This document shows positions 1,771 through 16,802 of a stretch of DNA of 23,238 nt, one piece after another. This DNA comes from a virus: positions 1-23,238 of IMG/VR virus record IMGVR_UViG_3300035698_001452. One strand, 5' to 3'. Each line of letters starts with the position of its first letter. Within the stretch, counting starts at the first letter, position 1. A program made the translations under genes and the position numbers. The notes beneath the pieces are model-generated. The model was not told the DNA's origin. It saw nothing but the letters and a program-made list of their open reading frames with translations, and did no database searches.

Positions 1771-2424
1771 ATGAACCAACCAAACTACAATCAAATTATC
1801 CCACAAGAGATACAAGAAATACTGATAGCAATCCGTGATCAAGATACTGCCCATTGCTGGACAGTCGGAGATATTTGCTGGCAGATAAAGAAGTATGCAG
1901 ACGAGCAAAAGAACATGATCCCAACAATGGAGATTTATTCAGCGGTGGGCTGCTTTGTAGGCAAGTCGAGTAGGACGGTACGCGAGTATGCAATGCTGAG
2001 TAAATTCTACGTGTTGGAGATGCGGGAAGTCTACGCGGTGTTGTCATTTGCACATTTCAAAAAGGCTAGGTCTGCAGGCCCCCGCTGGCAAATGGCTCTT
2101 GAGTGGTGTGTGGAAATCGGGGAGCTTGCAGGCAGGCCCGCCACGGTTGACGCGCTGGAGGCTTACATAGCCACAAACATCACAACGTATCAGGATATGC
2201 AGGACGAGCAGATATCCGGGGACCAGAAGCAAGCCCCCGATGATACCCAGGTGCACGACCTAAAATTATTCCTTGAGGGCGTTATACACAAGACGCACGG
2301 AATAAAAAAGGCTTTGGCGATACGAACCCCGAACCTACTGACGGAGAAAGACCAGCGGCGCATTGATGAAGCCGTAAACGAGATCGAGGAAGTCTTGAAT
2401 GAGTGCCTGGTAAGAACACGTTGA
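1771..2424 (+). CDS. Unknown protein with possible helix-turn-helix, last gene before the late control region
   Basis: A 217-aa soluble protein that I cannot place in a named family. Residues 60-75 (GKSSRTVREYAML) read like the turn and recognition helix of a ParB/KorB-type HTH. They are followed by a helical segment containing FAHFKKARSAG and GRPATVDALEAYI. The last 60 residues are strongly charged and helical, possibly a coiled coil. The start ATG at 1771 is preceded by AAGGAG (1758-1765 region). Its stop codon (2422-2424) lies inside the -35 hexamer of a strong promoter that fires into a short RNA and terminator. That position is equivalent to the lambda Q gene next to pR', which makes a transcriptional regulator role attractive. 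It lacks the cysteines of lambda Q, so this is only a positional argument. Confidence 0.6.
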   Translation: MNQPNYNQIIPQEIQEILIAIRDQDTAHCWTVGDICWQIKKYADEQKNMIPTMEIYSAVGCFVGKSSRTVREYAMLSKFYVLEMREVYAVLSFAHFKKARSAGPRWQMALEWCVEIGELAGRPATVDALEAYIATNITTYQDMQDEQISGDQKQAPDDTQVHDLKLFLEGVIHKTHGIKKALAIRTPNLLTEKDQRRIDEAVNEIEEVLNECLVRTR

Positions 2425-2449
2425 CTTTTATGACGATATATGAGATAAT
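2421..2449 (+). promoter_or_regulatory. Strong sigma70-type promoter with extended -10
   Basis: TTGACT (2421-2426) and GATAAT (2444-2449) are separated by exactly 17 bp. A TGA triplet directly before the -10 gives an extended -10 (TGnGATAAT). The predicted start is near A2456. The -35 box overlaps the stop codon of the preceding gene. It is the best promoter match noted in the window and points into a gene-free stretch that ends in an intrinsic terminator. Confidence 0.75.
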
Positions 2450-2455
2450 ACCTAT

Positions 2456-2572
2456 ACGGCACACTCGGCCTAATAAGCGGAATGTCCCGGAGCAAGAGGC
2501 AGCCATCTACTGCCGAAGCTCCTATGTCTGGTGAAAAAGGAAGGTCACCCGCTCCGGTGATCTTTCGTTTTA
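2456..2572 (+). ncRNA. Putative short structured RNA of about 115 nt (late leader RNA or phage sRNA)
   Basis: Between the extended -10 promoter and the intrinsic terminator is a stretch without a well-started ORF. It folds into a two-tier hairpin: GGAGC (2489-2493) pairs with GCTCC (2518-2522), enclosing GGCAG (2498-2502) paired with CTGCC (2510-2514). The internal loop is AAGA/GAA, which could form tandem sheared G-A pairs. The terminator hairpin follows. CCGGAGC (2487-2493) can alternatively pair with GCTCCGG (2551-2557) inside the terminator hairpin. I recognise no known riboswitch or tRNA. A 33-codon ORF (2482-2583) overlaps it but has no usable ribosome binding site and would read through the terminator. 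RNA status rests on promoter, folds and terminator together and is an inference. Confidence 0.55.
2534..2572 (+). terminator. Intrinsic (Rho-independent) terminator
   Basis: GGTCACC (2543-2549), loop CGCTCC, GGTGATC (2556-2562) form a 7-bp stem with one G-U pair. The stem extends outward through GGAA/TTTC and is followed by a T-rich tract (TTTCGTTTT, 2563-2571). The A-rich left flank means it may act in both directions. It would end transcripts of the preceding gene cluster as well as those from the promoter at 2421. It must be passed or bypassed for that promoter to reach the terminase genes. Confidence 0.72.
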
Positions 2573-2588
2573 AGGGATCATAAACAAC

Positions 2589-2617
2589 TTGATATAAATG
2601 GTATTATCCGATACAAT
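2589..2617 (+). promoter_or_regulatory. Sigma70-type promoter at the head of the packaging/structural operon
   Basis: TTGATA (2589-2594) and TACAAT (2612-2617) are spaced by 17 bp, directly behind the terminator. The predicted start near 2624 leaves a leader of only about 15 nt before the ATG at 2639. The GGAG ribosome site (2625-2628) would then lie at the very 5' end. It offers a second, terminator-independent route into the late genes. The motif match is good; activity is unproven. Confidence 0.55.
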
Positions 2618-2638
2618 GAATTTTGGAGACTTGTAAAA

Positions 2639-2692
2639 ATGGCTATTACCTTGCAGACTGAGAGAGGAATTATTGCAGAAGTGGTGTTATGA
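2639..2692 (+). CDS. 17-aa leader ORF coupled to the next gene
   Basis: An ATG at 2639 preceded by GGAG (2625-2628, 10-nt spacing) opens a 17-codon ORF, MAITLQTERGIIAEVVL. Its TGA (2690-2692) overlaps the next ATG as ATGA. The next gene has no good ribosome site of its own, so this short ORF may serve mainly to deliver ribosomes to it. It resembles no known peptide, and the length is too short for coding statistics. Confidence 0.42.
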   Translation: MAITLQTERGIIAEVVL

Positions 2693-2907
2693 AATCTAAG
2701 AAATCCGTTATCTCTGCCGATCTTGAGGTTATCAGGGTTCAAACGATGGCAAGTAAAGCTATCAGGGTTATTCTTGAGATGCCAGAACACATGATCCCAC
2801 AAATGGCGATGTTCGCTGAATGTCAAAGGAATGGTATTTATTTACATGGAGATTTTACGGCTATTGTGACAGAGGACAAAGATAATGCGAATGATTTTGA
2901 TTTTTAG
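2689..2907 (+). CDS. Small hypothetical phage protein
   Basis: A 72-aa protein with a basic N-terminus (MKSKKS), a central helix-rich part with repeated Met residues (EMPEHMIPQMAMF) and an acidic tail (EDKDNANDFDF). I recognise no family and see no signal peptide or membrane segment. It starts through an ATGA overlap with the 17-codon ORF and ends 26 bases before TerS, so it is the second ORF of the late operon. Its location suggests a packaging accessory, but nothing in the sequence demonstrates that. Confidence 0.6.
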   Translation: MKSKKSVISADLEVIRVQTMASKAIRVILEMPEHMIPQMAMFAECQRNGIYLHGDFTAIVTEDKDNANDFDF

Positions 2908-2933: not shown

Positions 2934-3362
2934 ATGGCAGCTAATAATACGTCTTTCAAGAAGGGCGACCCGCGCATAAATCGCAACGGGCGACCAAAGT
3001 CTTTTGACGCGCTCCGTAAGTTGGCGCAACAGATAGCGCATGAGGAAGCTCAGGCAGGCGGGAAGACTGTCGTTATCAACGGTAAGAAAGCTACGGTCGC
3101 AGAAATGGTTATGCGCCAGTGGGCGGCGAGTAAGGACCCCCGATTGCAGAAAACGTTCATAGAGATCGCGTTTGGTAAGGTGCCGGACGCGGTTGAGGTG
3201 AGCGGTAAGTTACTTTTGAAGGCTTATGAGACCGTATCCCCGGATGATTGGGATAAGGAAATTTATGACAATAACCAGATCGATGGAGAACTTGAGGACG
3301 GGCAGACCGAAGAACGCGCAATTTCAGCCTCTACCGTGGCAGACGAAACCGTGGAGGGATAA
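2934..3362 (+). CDS. terS: Terminase small subunit-like protein (DUF5681-type N-terminus)
   Basis: The N-terminus SFKKGDPRINRNGRPKSFDA is the Gly/Arg/Pro-rich lead of DUF5681-type proteins that often precede TerL. It is followed by a helical region with AEMVMRQWAASKDPRLQKTFIEIAFGKVPD, of which the last part resembles the helix before the oligomerisation domain of small terminases. TerS recognises the packaging site on the concatemer and loads TerL. At 142 aa it is in the usual size range. The C-terminal 30 residues are acidic and are encoded in sequence shared with the TerL N-terminus, so they may be a by-product of overprinting. The role is assigned by position plus the N-terminal motif; a pure DUF5681 protein of other function remains possible. 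Confidence 0.7.
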   Translation: MAANNTSFKKGDPRINRNGRPKSFDALRKLAQQIAHEEAQAGGKTVVINGKKATVAEMVMRQWAASKDPRLQKTFIEIAFGKVPDAVEVSGKLLLKAYETVSPDDWDKEIYDNNQIDGELEDGQTEERAISASTVADETVEG

Positions 3363-4605
3363 ATCAAAAGTCCTACTTCTTACGGGGTCTGCAGGCGGTG
3401 GGAAAAGCCGAGTAGCTGCAGAGAAGGTTCACGCCTTTATGCTAAAGTATCCTGGGGCCACTGGCATTATAGGACGTAAGGATAAGACATCAGCTAACAA
3501 ATCAATAGTCCCATTTATGCGAAGGACTATTCAGGGGAAAACTGAGTGGGGTCAATACAGGGCCGTAAGCGGTCTTTTTGATTACGACAACGGCTCTCAA
3601 TTATGGGTGGTGGGATTACGCGATGAACAGCAGCGGGAGAACTTGCGTTCTATTGGGCAGGATGGGTCAGTTGATATTGCATGGTTTGAAGAAGCCAACA
3701 AACTCATAGAGGCTGATCATAACGAGGTACAGGCTAGAATGCGTGGCAATGCTGCAGGCTGGCGGCAAATCATTTATACAACTAACCCGGACAGGCCAGA
3801 CCACTTTATAAAAAAGATGCTGATTGACGATAAGCAGGCAGCCACATATTATTCCAGCGCGAAGGATAATATATACAACCCAGAAGACTACCTCGAAACG
3901 CTGGAAGGGCTCACGGGCGTATTTTATGACCGTCTTTGTCTCGGGCTATGGGTACAGGCCGAAGGGGCGATTTATACAGAATACGACCCGGCTATCCACC
4001 TGGTAGACCACTTTGATGTGGAGGGCGTGGGTAGATATATTGTGTCAATTGACTTCGGGTATATCCATCCGTTCGTGGCTACGTTGTGGTACATTGATCA
4101 AAATGATATAATATATTTGTACCGGGAAATATTCCAAACAGGACGATTAGTCGAAGACCATGCAAAAGAGATAAAGCGAATGACAGCAGGGCTGCCTATT
4201 GAAGCCTACATCACAGACCACGACGCGGAAGACAGGGCGACATTGGAAAAGCATCTCAAGATAAAGACTAAACCAGCATACAAGGGAGTAATACCTGGGA
4301 TACAAGCTGTAAAGGCAAGATTGCGAGATAAGCGATTATTCATTATGAGAAACGCACTTATGCAGGCAGATATGAAATTAGAACGAGCAAAACGCCCAAC
4401 TTGCACACAAGAAGAAATCTCCGGTTATCGGTGGGGAAATAACGAGAAGCCGGTGAAAGAGTTGGATGATGGAATGGATAGCCTCCGCTACCTCGTCGCG
4501 TATGTTGACAAGATCAGCAGGGCGTTTTCTCTTGGTTCCGTTGGTGTGGGCGTAGACAATTGGGCGGGCAGGGGCGAGATCAAGCGTCCTGAAATTAGAT
4601 ATTAA
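3265..4605 (+). CDS. terL: Terminase large subunit (packaging ATPase-nuclease)
   Basis: TerL powers DNA translocation into the prohead and cuts the concatemer. An adenine-binding Q-motif-like FQPLPWQTKPW lies at residues 20-30, Walker A GSAGGGKS at 41-48, and Walker B VDIAWFEE at 136-143 with the catalytic acid E142/E143. The RNase H-like nuclease domain has D263 in SIDFGY, D318/D320 in ITDHDAED and D401/D402/D405 in ELDDGMDSLRYL. I place the start at ATG 3265 because AAGGA (3255-3259) sits 5 nt upstream. ATG 3226 or 3283 are alternatives. Any of these overlaps TerS by about 80-137 nt, and the overlap encodes the Q-motif. The 446 aa is typical of compact siphovirus TerL proteins. Confidence 0.95.
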   Translation: MTITRSMENLRTGRPKNAQFQPLPWQTKPWRDKSKVLLLTGSAGGGKSRVAAEKVHAFMLKYPGATGIIGRKDKTSANKSIVPFMRRTIQGKTEWGQYRAVSGLFDYDNGSQLWVVGLRDEQQRENLRSIGQDGSVDIAWFEEANKLIEADHNEVQARMRGNAAGWRQIIYTTNPDRPDHFIKKMLIDDKQAATYYSSAKDNIYNPEDYLETLEGLTGVFYDRLCLGLWVQAEGAIYTEYDPAIHLVDHFDVEGVGRYIVSIDFGYIHPFVATLWYIDQNDIIYLYREIFQTGRLVEDHAKEIKRMTAGLPIEAYITDHDAEDRATLEKHLKIKTKPAYKGVIPGIQAVKARLRDKRLFIMRNALMQADMKLERAKRPTCTQEEISGYRWGNNEKPVKELDDGMDSLRYLVAYVDKISRAFSLGSVGVGVDNWAGRGEIKRPEIRY

Positions 4606-4617
4606 AGGAGTAGAAAA

Positions 4618-6135
4618 ATGCCAGACGTGACCGATAATTCACAATTGATTATATCTGCCTTACAAAAGACGGACAAAGAGCTCGCTTTGCAGGTGGACGC
4701 TGAAAACACCCTGCAGGAGTACATCATAAGGAAAGGCGCCAGAACAAGCACGTTCCGGGAATACGAACGGGGCGATCATAAAGCCAACATGACTGACGAG
4801 ATAAGGAAGATGCTACGGCTCACGCCTGATGACGCGGCACTGAATGAGTTATGTGATAACTACTGCTCCATCGTGGTTGACAAAATGGCTGGCAGGTTGC
4901 GTATTGATAAGATGCTCACTGACACAGAGCCGGGTACAGAATGGCTTGACGGTATAAAGGAAAATAGCGACTTTGACAAGCTGCAGTCCACCATAGGTAG
5001 AGCAGCGGTCAGGGACGGGGACGCTTATATTATGGTTGACCCTGTAACCCTCAAATGGACAGCCGAGCCCGATTATGACGGGTTCACGGGCGTTTTTGCT
5101 TTGTTCGGTCAGGATGATATGCCGGTTTGGGCCTGCAAGCTATGGAGCGAAGCTGATTACCAGCGCAACGATGACGATACCGCAAACACGTCTGAAACGT
5201 ACATCAAGATAATTGTCTACCAGCCGGATCAAATTACTTATTGGTTGGGTGATGTGGGCGGGCAGGACGTAACACTTATGCCTGAGGAACAGGCGCCGGA
5301 CGGAAACAATACAGTTGATTGGAGCAAAGTCGGTAAAATACCCATGGTTCATTTTGCGAACCGACAGGACAATTACATCCCCTACGGGCTGTCAGAATTA
5401 CGTCCAGCAATCCCACTGCAAAATATCCTGAACCGCACACTACACTCGATGCTCATGGCAGCTGAACTTTCAGCCTTCAAAATACATTACGTGGTCGGTG
5501 CGGAAGTTGAAGGTAAGGCGATTGTGCCTGGATCGATAATAAACCTTGTACTCAAGGACTCTAGCGGTACGGTCATTACAGACCCATCCCCGGATCAAGT
5601 TGAATTATTGAAGGCAATACGGGTTGGAGAGCTTGGCACAACGGACATGAGCCAGTACATCTCACAGATCGAGAAGTTGGTGCAGGAGATTTCACAGACC
5701 ACACAGACGCCGATTTATGGGGTCACAACACAAGGGGTCGTTTCTGGGGACGCATTGAAGCAGTTGGAAATCGGGCTTATTGGCAAGGTGCTCCGGTTCC
5801 AGCAGGAGAATACGGACGCATGGAGTGAGCTTGTGTTCCTCACGGCTCTTATACAAGGGACATTTGTAAACCACGCGGCACCCCCGAAATTCACCTCTGT
5901 AGAGATAAACTGGAAATCACCCGAGATATTAAACGTCACTGAGCGTATAAACATGTTTACAGAGATGCGAAAGAATATGCCGGGTCTGTTCACGGATGAT
6001 TTTTACAGGCAGAATATAGGCGGTTTACTGATGATGAAGGAAACCGACATTGAGGAACAAAGCACTAAAGCCGCGCAGGAGCAAGCGTTCACTTTCGAGA
6101 CGTTCACAGCCGCGGGAGCGGGGATAGGCGCATAA
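4618..6135 (+). CDS. Portal protein (SPP1 gp6-like)
   Basis: The 505-aa length matches SPP1-type portals (about 500 aa). The protein forms the dodecameric ring at the unique capsid vertex through which DNA passes and to which TerL and the neck bind. Family-like segments are NELCDNYCSIVVDKMAGRL near residue 80, a tract with GRAAVRDGDAYIMVD around 125, IPMVHFANR around 240, and the C-terminal GDALKQLEIGLIGKVLRFQQ followed by helices that make the crown. AAGGAG (4605-4610 area) provides a strong ribosome site before ATG 4618. Position between TerL and the MuF protein is the canonical order. Confidence 0.93.
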   Translation: MPDVTDNSQLIISALQKTDKELALQVDAENTLQEYIIRKGARTSTFREYERGDHKANMTDEIRKMLRLTPDDAALNELCDNYCSIVVDKMAGRLRIDKMLTDTEPGTEWLDGIKENSDFDKLQSTIGRAAVRDGDAYIMVDPVTLKWTAEPDYDGFTGVFALFGQDDMPVWACKLWSEADYQRNDDDTANTSETYIKIIVYQPDQITYWLGDVGGQDVTLMPEEQAPDGNNTVDWSKVGKIPMVHFANRQDNYIPYGLSELRPAIPLQNILNRTLHSMLMAAELSAFKIHYVVGAEVEGKAIVPGSIINLVLKDSSGTVITDPSPDQVELLKAIRVGELGTTDMSQYISQIEKLVQEISQTTQTPIYGVTTQGVVSGDALKQLEIGLIGKVLRFQQENTDAWSELVFLTALIQGTFVNHAAPPKFTSVEINWKSPEILNVTERINMFTEMRKNMPGLFTDDFYRQNIGGLLMMKETDIEEQSTKAAQEQAFTFETFTAAGAGIGA

Positions 6136-8399: not shown

Positions 8400-8431
8400 C
8401 TGATTGAATTATATTCAAAATCAGGTATAAT
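8400..8431 (+). promoter_or_regulatory. Promoter for the scaffold/capsid genes overlapped by an inverted repeat
   Basis: TTGAAT (8404-8409) and a perfect TATAAT (8426-8431), 16 bp apart, lie 54 bases before the scaffold ATG. An inverted repeat, CTGATTGAA (8400-8408) against TTC-AA-AATCAG (8414-8424), covers the -35 box and spacer. It could be an operator or simply an A/T-rich hairpin. No T-tract follows, so a terminator is unlikely. A separate promoter here would raise output of scaffold and capsid proteins. Confidence 0.55.
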
Positions 8432-9611: not shown

Positions 9612-10547
9612 ATGACTGCCACACCTATGATTTCCGATCAGTGGCCCAGATTTGTACTACCAATCGTTCGAAAAGAATGGTACCAGCAAATGCAGGAGAT
9701 CACTTCAACCGCTGCACAGTTCTACGGCGTGGATACCTCTACTTCTTCGGTAGAGTATTCTCAAGGTATAGGCCAGTTCGGTGATGTTCCCGAATATAAT
9801 GCCAGTACCGCCGAAGGCGACCCGGCGGCAATTCCATACGACAGCTTTGGCAAGTTGTATGAGAAAACATTCACTCACAAAGAGTACGCCAAAGGCGTCG
9901 CAATCGAACGCAAATTGTGGGACGATGACCAGAAGGGCAATATTCGCCGACGTGCCGCCAATCTTGGCAACTCGTTCGGCTCAACCATCGCAACCCACCA
10001 GTCCAGCGTGTTCGTGAACGCTTTTGATGCTACCGTAGTCGGTTCAGATGCCGTTGCACTTTGCAGCGCGGTTCACCCTAACCGAGAAGATGACGCTACC
10101 ACGTATCACGACAATCTCGGATCTTCGGCATTGAGTTATGATGCAGTAGTCGAAACCCTGGAAGCAGGGCGGCGCATGGATAATGACAGGGGAAAGCCCC
10201 TACCGTCACGCTACAATGTGCTCTATGTTCCTATTGAGTTACAGGCCACCGCGGTTGAAATCGTGAACGCTCTTGCAAAACCGGGCGGCGCGAACAATGA
10301 CGCTAACTTCCTCTCAAGTCAGGGCTTGCAGGTTGTAGTCGATGACTATCTGACCGATGCGAATAACTGGTTCATGGTGGACAGCCGTCAGGCTAATTTG
10401 CACCTGCTCTGGTTCTGGCGCGTTCGCCCAGGTATTACCGTTGATCCATCAAGTGACTATAACCTGGTTGCGAAATATCGCGGATATATGCGTTTTTCTT
10501 ATGGTTGGGATGATTTCAGGTTCATTTTTGGACATGAAGTAACCTAA
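9612..10547 (+). CDS. Major capsid protein (Mu gpT-like / HK97 fold)
   Basis: A 311-aa protein with an N-terminal IVRKEWYQQMQEI helix and a block containing FTHKEYAKGVAIERKLWDDD that corresponds to the E-loop/spine region of gpT-like capsid proteins. The central part carries ALCSAVHPN (as in many gpT-like heads), and the C-terminal A-domain-like segment contains LYVPIELQATAVEI and LHLLWFWRVRPGI. It would form the icosahedral shell. AGGAG (9600-9604) lies 7 nt before ATG 9612. No N-terminal delta domain is obvious, which agrees with the separate scaffold gene. Its stop overlaps the stop of the convergent HNH gene by 4 nt. Confidence 0.9.
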   Translation: MTATPMISDQWPRFVLPIVRKEWYQQMQEITSTAAQFYGVDTSTSSVEYSQGIGQFGDVPEYNASTAEGDPAAIPYDSFGKLYEKTFTHKEYAKGVAIERKLWDDDQKGNIRRRAANLGNSFGSTIATHQSSVFVNAFDATVVGSDAVALCSAVHPNREDDATTYHDNLGSSALSYDAVVETLEAGRRMDNDRGKPLPSRYNVLYVPIELQATAVEIVNALAKPGGANNDANFLSSQGLQVVVDDYLTDANNWFMVDSRQANLHLLWFWRVRPGITVDPSSDYNLVAKYRGYMRFSYGWDDFRFIFGHEVT

Positions 10548-11092
10548 TCAATCCACTCGCTTAACAGCTTGCTTCCTTTGCTACGATTACAAAGGGGGCA
10601 GGCTATAGCGAGATTGTCAGGATAATTTGAACCCCCGCGAGAAATAGGAATAACGTGATCAACATCGTAAATGGAACCAACAGGAACACCGCAATAAGCG
10701 CACTTACCACATTGCTTTTCATAAAGCATATTGATGTCTTCTGCGGTATGTGTGCCTTCCGCATTGGCAAGTCTAGCTTGTCTGTTTGTAACGTGGACTC
10801 TGCCCTGCTCTTTATGATTTTGACGGTATTTCTTGCTATTAGCTTTATGTTTGAGTGGGTTATCTATTTTCCACTGAGTAGCACGTTCAACAGCTTTGCT
10901 GCTGTGATCTTTGGAATACTGACGCATCTGTTCACGAGCCTTTTCACCGTTGAGCACATGGTGTTCTTTTCGTTCTTGGCTCCTACACGTTTTACAACGT
11001 GGGTGAAGTCCAGACGACTGGATATGATGCTTATGAAAATATTGAGTATTCGCCGGAAAAGTTTTACCGCATTTTGTGCATGTTTTCTTCAT
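10544..11092 (-). CDS. HNH homing-type endonuclease inserted antisense behind the capsid gene
   Basis: This is the only convincing minus-strand gene. The 182-aa product has an N-terminal zinc ribbon (C5-x2-C8 and C33-x2-C36, with YFHK between). A long basic helical linker rich in Lys, Arg and Gln follows. The C-terminal HNH module comprises C131-x2-C134, D145-H146 in DVDHVIP, N160 and C165-x2-C168-N169. Zinc-ribbon plus HNH is typical of free-standing phage homing endonucleases, which cut a target in related phages and spread by repair. AGGA seven bases before the ATG is the ribosome site. Opposite orientation within an otherwise uniform late operon, and insertion exactly at a gene boundary, point to horizontal arrival. 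Upstream (11109-11201) lies a strong inverted-repeat/pseudoknot element. Confidence 0.9.
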   Translation of the reverse strand: MKKTCTKCGKTFPANTQYFHKHHIQSSGLHPRCKTCRSQERKEHHVLNGEKAREQMRQYSKDHSSKAVERATQWKIDNPLKHKANSKKYRQNHKEQGRVHVTNRQARLANAEGTHTAEDINMLYEKQCGKCAYCGVPVGSIYDVDHVIPISRGGSNYPDNLAIACPLCNRSKGSKLLSEWID

Positions 11093-15606: not shown

Positions 15607-16365
15607 ATGGCAAATTTTGATGCTTATGGAACAGGACTAAAGACAGGCACTAACCAGGTGGAAACGGCTACAGTGGCAGTTACTACCGTTACAGCCGGGA
15701 ACGCTGATTTCGTCCTGACAGCTAACGGGATGACAGGGTCAGCAATTACAACGGTTGTCGCGGTTGCAAACGGGGACTCGGCTGATGACGTTGCAAGAAA
15801 AGCCGCTACAGCTATGAATACCGATAGCGATATTACGGATCTGTTTTCAGTTGTGGCGAATGGCCCTTATGTCACTGTCACCAGGTTAGTAGCAATTGCC
15901 AATGATGGGACCCTCAATCTGGCTTATGCAGATGATACAAGCGGTGGGATCACGGACGCCGCCACTTCTGCGAACACCACTGCAGGAGCTGTATTAGCGA
16001 CTGTCGCACAAATCACGGGCGTTACGGGACCGAGTATGTCTCTTGACAGTGTGGACGTAACAACTCATGACAGCACAAGTGCATTTGAGGAGGTGGTCGC
16101 AACCGTTTTGCGCTCTGGTGATTTATCAGTGGATATTGTATATGACCCTGCAGATGACAGTCAAGATGCTACCGCGACTACAGGGTTGGCATATCGTTAC
16201 AAGAACAGGGTATACACTAATTTCTCAATCACGTTCCCTGACACAGCAGGCACCGTCTGGAATTTTGACGGGTGGATAACTGCATTTGAACCATCTGAGC
16301 CGGTTGATGGTGCGCTAACCGCTTCAGTTACAATCAAGGTCGATGGCGTTCCGACGCTTCGATAA
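15607..16365 (+). CDS. Major tail protein 1, with inserted beta domain
   Basis: Residues 1-16 and about 132-252 match, block by block, the whole of the next gene's product (DAYGT, GPSMSLDSVDVTTHDSTSA, LRSGDL, DIVYDPADD, AFEP, VDGALTASVTIK). Both are therefore paralogous tail tube subunits of the lambda gpV/HK97-type family. Residues about 17-131 are an insert absent from the paralogue. It has the TAGNADFVLTANGMTGSAIT, NGDSADDVARKAATAMNTD, LNLAYADDTSGGIT and ANTTAGA elements of a widespread phage add-on domain. A decorated subunit may project from the tube surface. GGAG (15597-15600 area) is the ribosome site. Confidence 0.85.
   Translation: MANFDAYGTGLKTGTNQVETATVAVTTVTAGNADFVLTANGMTGSAITTVVAVANGDSADDVARKAATAMNTDSDITDLFSVVANGPYVTVTRLVAIANDGTLNLAYADDTSGGITDAATSANTTAGAVLATVAQITGVTGPSMSLDSVDVTTHDSTSAFEEVVATVLRSGDLSVDIVYDPADDSQDATATTGLAYRYKNRVYTNFSITFPDTAGTVWNFDGWITAFEPSEPVDGALTASVTIKVDGVPTLR
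15655..15999 (+). other. Inserted domain in major tail protein 1
   Basis: This segment encodes residues 17-131 of the first tail tube protein and has no counterpart in the adjacent paralogue; alignment resumes with (A)QITGVTGPS against (S)ITGPS. It is Thr/Ala/Val rich, with a helix containing ADDVARKAATAM flanked by strands. It resembles domains found as inserts in other phage tail and baseplate proteins. Boundaries are by eye to within a few residues. Confidence 0.7.
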
Positions 16366-16379
16366 ATAAGGAGTAAGAT

Positions 16380-16802
16380 ATGGCTACTAAATACGATGCT
16401 TATGGAACCGCACTCTACAAGGGGACAAATACCGGGACAGCCTACGCTCAAGTAACAAGTATCACCGGGCCGAGTATGTCTCTGGATACGGTAGATGTTA
16501 CCAGCCACGACAGCACAAGTGCCTGGGAAGAAGTCGTTGTAACTATTCTACGCAGTGGCGATCTCACGATGGATATCGTGTACGATCCAGCTGACGCTAC
16601 CCACAAGAACGCTTCTGGTGGATTACTTGCTGATTTCATTGCAAGAACAGCGGTTGTTTTTACGTTGATCTTCCCAGATGCGGCAACAACTGAATGGACA
16701 TTCAGCGGGTACATTACCGCTTTTGAACCGAGTGCTCCTGTAGATGGTGCATTGACCGCGAGTGTTACGATAAAACCTTCGGGCGTGGTCACGCTAGTCT
16801 GA
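16380..16802 (+). CDS. Major tail protein 2 (short paralogue)
   Basis: The 140-aa minimal tail tube protein includes KYDAYGTALYKGTN, ITGPSMSLDTVDVTSHDSTS, LRSGDLTMDIVYDPADA and a C-terminal AFEPSAPVDGALTASVTIK. Over the shared part it is closely similar to major tail protein 1, with many identical residues and some short identical DNA runs such as GACAGCACAAGTGC. This indicates a tandem duplication, now diverged. It may be the principal tube subunit, with the longer one incorporated at a fraction of positions or in a separate layer. AAGGAG (16368-16373) precedes the ATG. Confidence 0.88.
   Translation: MATKYDAYGTALYKGTNTGTAYAQVTSITGPSMSLDTVDVTSHDSTSAWEEVVVTILRSGDLTMDIVYDPADATHKNASGGLLADFIARTAVVFTLIFPDAATTEWTFSGYITAFEPSAPVDGALTASVTIKPSGVVTLV

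Follow-up and report, generated by a model that had tools for sequence, protein, structure and literature searches.

A candidate early/late boundary cassette at the late-gene entrance of a virus from an uncultured bacterium

Order of elements at the late entrance

Between the early part of a viral genome and its terminase genes lies a compact series of sequence elements which we read, with moderate confidence, as an early/late boundary cassette in which the RNA from a first promoter (P1) would be short and terminated and the late genes would start at a separate promoter (P2). The window, that is, the whole stretch of 23,238 bases analysed here, is an IMG/VR virus record from a virus of an uncultured bacterium. 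The final gene of its early part, termed q217, is followed by P1, about 115 nt without a gene, a hairpin, a P2-like stretch and then TerS and TerL, with portal and further structural genes downstream (Table 1). An earlier sequence-only reading had described this succession of promoter, gene-free stretch, terminator and TerS/TerL, which is confirmed at the sequence level, and had likened it to lambda pR'-6S-tR'; the physical layout behind that comparison stands and recurs in the related contig L008 and, more weakly, in L189, whereas lambda-type control is unsupported.

In the scheme that we favour, P1, at the 3' end of q217, would drive a transcript that stops at the hairpin, and the hairpin would also close the q217 operon. 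Transcription of the terminase genes and of the structural genes would begin at P2 just behind this terminator, possibly activated by q217 as by RinA/Ltr proteins, and the short RNA would be a terminated leader, a 3'-UTR transcript or possibly an sRNA, not a switch that controls late expression. The second promoter behind the terminator together with the gene order of the relatives suggests such an ordinary boundary instead of a new antitermination switch.

Table 1. Predicted features around the early/late border (positions in the window)
Feature	Position	Strand	Basis or remark
q217, 217-aa protein gene, last before the cassette	1771..2424	+	small family, possibly DNA-binding
Promoter P1, TTGACT-17-TGaGATAAT, overlaps q217 stop codon	2421..2449	+	28/36 identity to G403 promoter
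ATACCTATA, possible operator half-site across -10/+1 region of P1	2448..2456	+	perfect copies elsewhere are those in G403's three promoters
Predicted short non-coding transcript, ~115 nt	2456..2572	+	low coding scores, fold z -2.85
Hairpin GGAGC-AAGA-GGCAG...CTGCC-GAA-GCTCC within the transcript	2489..2522	+	z about -3.7, chosen 36-nt stretch
Intrinsic-terminator-like hairpin, probably bidirectional	2532..2572	.	-16.9 kcal/mol, z -2.6
Promoter P2 of late operon (predicted), extended -10 TGGTATTAT	2599..2607	+	same -10 in L185 and L189
P2 alternative, TTGATA-17-TACAAT	2589..2617	+	promoter scan
17-aa ORF, GGAG ribosome site, ATGA overlap with next gene	2639..2692	+	sequence reading
72-aa ORF, first longer late-operon gene	2689..2907	+	no family match
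TerS, small terminase subunit	2934..3362	+	position and homology; 53% identical to ORF shortly before TerL in L189
TerL, large terminase subunit	3226..4605	+	Terminase_3, Terminase_6N, phrog_2

The true start of TerL is probably near 3361. At the head of the late operon, the 17-aa ORF has a good ribosome site, and its stop/start overlap suggests translational coupling with the next gene. Motif reading also places an HNH-type endonuclease gene behind the major capsid gene (10544-11092, minus strand), and another HNH gene lies at 1259-1768. Two adjacent similar proteins of 252 and 140 aa at 15607-16802, also paired in the contig G403, are probably duplicated tail proteins.

A promoter class common to two phages

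P1 combines a match to 10 of 12 consensus positions with an extended -10, and the TGA stop of q217 (2422-2424) falls inside its -35 box. Counted by hexamers, the window has hardly more promoters (15) than shuffled sequence (9.8 ± 2.7), and it is the comparison with G403, which carries the closest q217 homolog found, that lends credence to the 17-bp-spaced promoter of the sequence-only reading. P1 and the best G403 promoter agree at 28 of 36 positions, more than any of 572 promoter-like control sites from other loci (at most 23/36), which makes P1 a credible promoter. In G403 there are three near-identical promoters of this form, each ahead of a non-structural gene. Since every copy precedes a ribosome site and gene within about 30 nt and the late entrance of G403 has none, we class P1 as early-type, and by the comparison as a whole it is very probably a real promoter.

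P1 itself, unlike the G403 copies, has no ribosome site and gene within that distance, as would be expected of a relic, namely an early promoter copy whose gene was lost and whose RNA has no function. However, its -35, -10 and right half-site are all intact and L008 has a comparable leader, so that we consider a relic very unlikely.

A perfect TATAGGTAT/ATACCTATA half-site occurs once in the 23-kb window, inside P1, and only three times in the 29 kb of G403, in each case within one of its early-type promoters; by resampling, no perfect half-site is expected. A regulator may bind this half-site. When the pattern of bases common to P1 and the G403 promoter was searched for in the IMG/VR collection, this contig was the only match, which we take as supporting evidence only, the pattern having been drawn from those two sequences themselves. 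By eye, the best hexamer for a -10-like pause element early in the transcript is CCTAAT (4/6, about +14 to +19), and it is not distinctive.

Two further arrangements around these promoters deserve mention. The -10 regions of P1 (2439-2452) and P2 (2600-2613) form a 14-nt inverted repeat with 86% agreement (GATAATACC / GGTATTATC), and a similar inverted pair spaced by 8 nt is present in G404 (L215 near 16125). On the reverse complement of G403, at about 5005-5040, the gene upstream of TerS is immediately preceded by the extended -10 TGCTATAAT and then the palindrome TTTTGGCGAAGTTCGCCAAAA, an arrangement that looks like an operator-controlled promoter.

A gene-free interval ending at a hairpin

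Two small ORFs can be read in the interval behind P1, at 2430-2534 (also from 2421; 34-37 aa) and at 2482-2583. Their codon scores lie below those of 99.7% and 95% of real-gene windows, respectively, and are typical of wrong frames; a search with the longer ORF found no homologs, and we therefore reject a small protein gene here.

The region 2456-2578 folds better than 200 of 200 shuffles (z = -2.85), a signal due to the hairpin at 2489-2522 (z about -3.7 for this chosen stretch) and the terminator hairpin, and the 77 nt ahead of the terminator, taken as a whole, are unremarkable (z = -1.3). Of the earlier description of about 115 nt with strong folds and no convincingly started gene, the gene-free character thus stands and the folds hold for the two hairpins, but not for the leader overall. 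An alternative antiterminator fold pairing CCGGAGC with GCTCCGG (2487-2493 with 2551-2557) is possible but lies 5 kcal/mol above the best fold. Chance alone would supply a 7-bp complement in a stretch like this one, and we set the fold aside. A known RNA family was likewise discarded, Rfam giving no match in the window, nor at permissive thresholds for 2380-2700.

The terminator was expected at 2534-2572 before TerS/TerL, and a terminator-like hairpin is indeed present there. It consists of an 11-bp stem (2539-2566) followed by GTTTT, or alternatively of a 7-bp stem followed by TTTCGTTTT. On the plus strand it is only moderate, with an interrupted U-tract that counts against the boundary cassette, and on the minus strand it is as good; because the automatic terminator scan also reported it on the minus strand only, the terminator is probably bidirectional.

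Besides the terminated leader of the boundary cassette, the transcript could be a phage sRNA with a function of its own that begins at the 3' end of q217 and stops at the terminator. The precedent is StxS, an sRNA that Stx phages make from their pR'-tR' region (PMC7873438), to which the window is alike in its predicted short RNA running from a late-entrance promoter to an intrinsic terminator. A putative promoter and terminator of its own, the lack of coding signal and the stable hairpin agree with this possibility. The predicted RNA is unrelated to StxS in sequence. Against an independent sRNA, no sequence relative was found in 400 genomes of the phylum of L090 (an Anaerolineae MAG), in phage records or in the fetched relatives. 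The single match to the central hairpin (35 nt, 89%, genome G018) is inside a purH-like gene and was dismissed as chance, its per-genome E of 8e-5 giving about 0.03 over 400 genomes. Taken together, we find an independent sRNA rather unlikely.

Start of late transcription in the window and its relatives

Two related contigs, L185 (756-786) and L189 (about 6968, portal gene), carry the extended -10 TGGTATTAT immediately ahead of a gene as well, and in L185 the order is a terminator, TTGACA-17-TGGTATTAT and a gene. Because the form recurs close to genes in these two contigs, we take it to be P2, the late promoter, and the late operon appears to have a promoter of its own behind the terminator. 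The sequence-only reading had placed a second promoter at 2589; a promoter-like stretch is present there, but the relatives favour the -10 TGGTATTAT at 2599-2607 over TACAAT at 2612-2617. P2 has an extended -10 without a clear -35, which is a counterpoint to the boundary cassette. The late region itself contains more promoter-like sites, such as TTGAAT-16-TATAAT at 8404 ahead of 8449, and together with P2 they argue that the late operon does not rely on read-through. Late transcription would then come mainly from P2.

Relatives were collected by TerL and portal, yielding about 30 contigs, most with 42-58% identity. L008 has the same layout at its late entrance, with a gene end, TATAAT, about 150 nt of folded leader (z -4.5), a 13-bp terminator (3351-3380), a second TATAAT near 3403 and TerS. 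L172 has a terminator (2098-2126) and then TATAAT before TerS, without a leader, and L087 has TTGAAC-17-TATAAT ahead of TerS. The terminator with a -10 just before TerS in L008 and L172 and the promoter before TerS in L087 support the boundary cassette, as does the promoter class common to the window and G403. The leaders of the window and L008 show no sequence similarity, and we rejected both a conserved RNA between the two and, by comparison, the L008 upstream protein as a relative of q217. Related phages had been proposed as the place to look for base-pair conservation in this interval; on comparison, the RNA sequence is not conserved. That L008 has a strongly folded leader in the same place is nevertheless a counterpoint to the view of the RNA as a by-product, as the leader may be functional.

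In lambda, the pR'-6S-tR' arrangement works with the Q antiterminator (PMC6266700, PMC4604602). The window is like lambda pR' and Stx pR' in that a predicted sigma-70 promoter directly follows the last early gene, and an untranslated leader and intrinsic terminator precede the late genes. By analogy P1 would be the late promoter, the short RNA a 6S analogue and q217 an antiterminator allowing read-through into the late genes; this agrees with the gene order in the window, with the leader and terminator at the late entrance of L008, and with L189, where the q217 homolog is followed by the extended -10 TGATACAAT, about 60 nt, a 14-bp hairpin (z -5.95), three genes and TerS, without another clear promoter before those genes, although no clear -35 accompanies TGATACAAT, which could be there by chance. 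The window differs from lambda in that q217 matches no Q family, a second promoter-like site lies behind the terminator, and q217 homologs are not tied to the cassette layout, which most other relatives lack. In G403 a terminator comes directly after the homolog, no promoter follows on that strand, and TerS is about 5.8 kb away. Of the functional readings, lambda-like antitermination faces the most contrary evidence, and we judge it quite improbable.

A side observation from G403 (L206 640-745, minus strand) is an extended -10 promoter (TGCTATAAT) on the opposite strand, which would give an RNA of about 65 nt that stops at the terminator following the q217 homolog.

The q217 family

The product of q217 had been called uncharacterised, and rightly so: it matches no Pfam, PHROGs or NCBIfam family, and its homologs likewise match no antiterminator family there. 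The G403 homolog is 46% identical over 144 aa and 57% in the core; further homologs are in L189/G404 (about 30%) and in G272, one genome of the L090 phylum (E 2.6e-9), and no additional ones were found in phages and plasmids. In L189 the homolog lies 2 kb from TerS. The proposal that q217 is a new type of antiterminator is unsupported, given the lack of an antiterminator family, the homologs 2-6 kb from TerS and P2 behind the terminator.

The predicted structure is all-helical with low confidence (pLDDT 60), and ParB DNA-binding domains are among its structural matches (Z about 6.5, which the tool's own notes grade as weak), which would make a DNA-binding role plausible. By sequence, membership in ParB is unsupported: no HTH_ParB profile matches in the window, and the q217 and ParB profiles do not align.

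Ltr-type binding sites are repeats, and no direct repeats were found between the 3' part of q217 and P2 (2250-2700). This weighs against late activation of the RinA/Ltr kind, where the terminator would insulate and P1 and its RNA would be secondary, and so do the q217 homologs in G403 and L189, which do not adjoin TerS, and the missing sequence support for the ParB resemblance. The position of q217 in the window does agree with the published logic of RinA/Ltr activators, which sit before terminase genes (PMC13123087), the weak structural resemblance to ParB DNA-binding domains points the same way, and a promoter without a clear -35, like P2, would be common among activated promoters. Compared with RinA/Ltr/Alt of Gram-positive phages, q217 is longer (217 vs. 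about 130 aa) and has no family match. On balance we hold this kind of activation to be unlikely. Lambda, StxS and the RinA/Ltr systems are the closest known systems and resemble the window in layout, and it can be assigned to none of them.

Implications

To our knowledge, how phages of uncultured bacteria control their late genes has hardly been studied. The q217 family could be an unrecognised late-gene regulator, acting by antitermination at the terminator of P1 or through the TATAGGTAT/ATACCTATA operator and accompanying a unit of promoter, short RNA and terminator in phages whose uncultured hosts are possibly Chloroflexota, a thought that we regard as a long shot. Even so, a promoter class common to two distant phages provides a concrete starting place, together with a possible operator and a candidate regulator that co-occurs with it. 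If the RNA or q217 does control entry into the late genes, the virus would have found its own answer to the problem that lambda solves with Q, independently of lambda.
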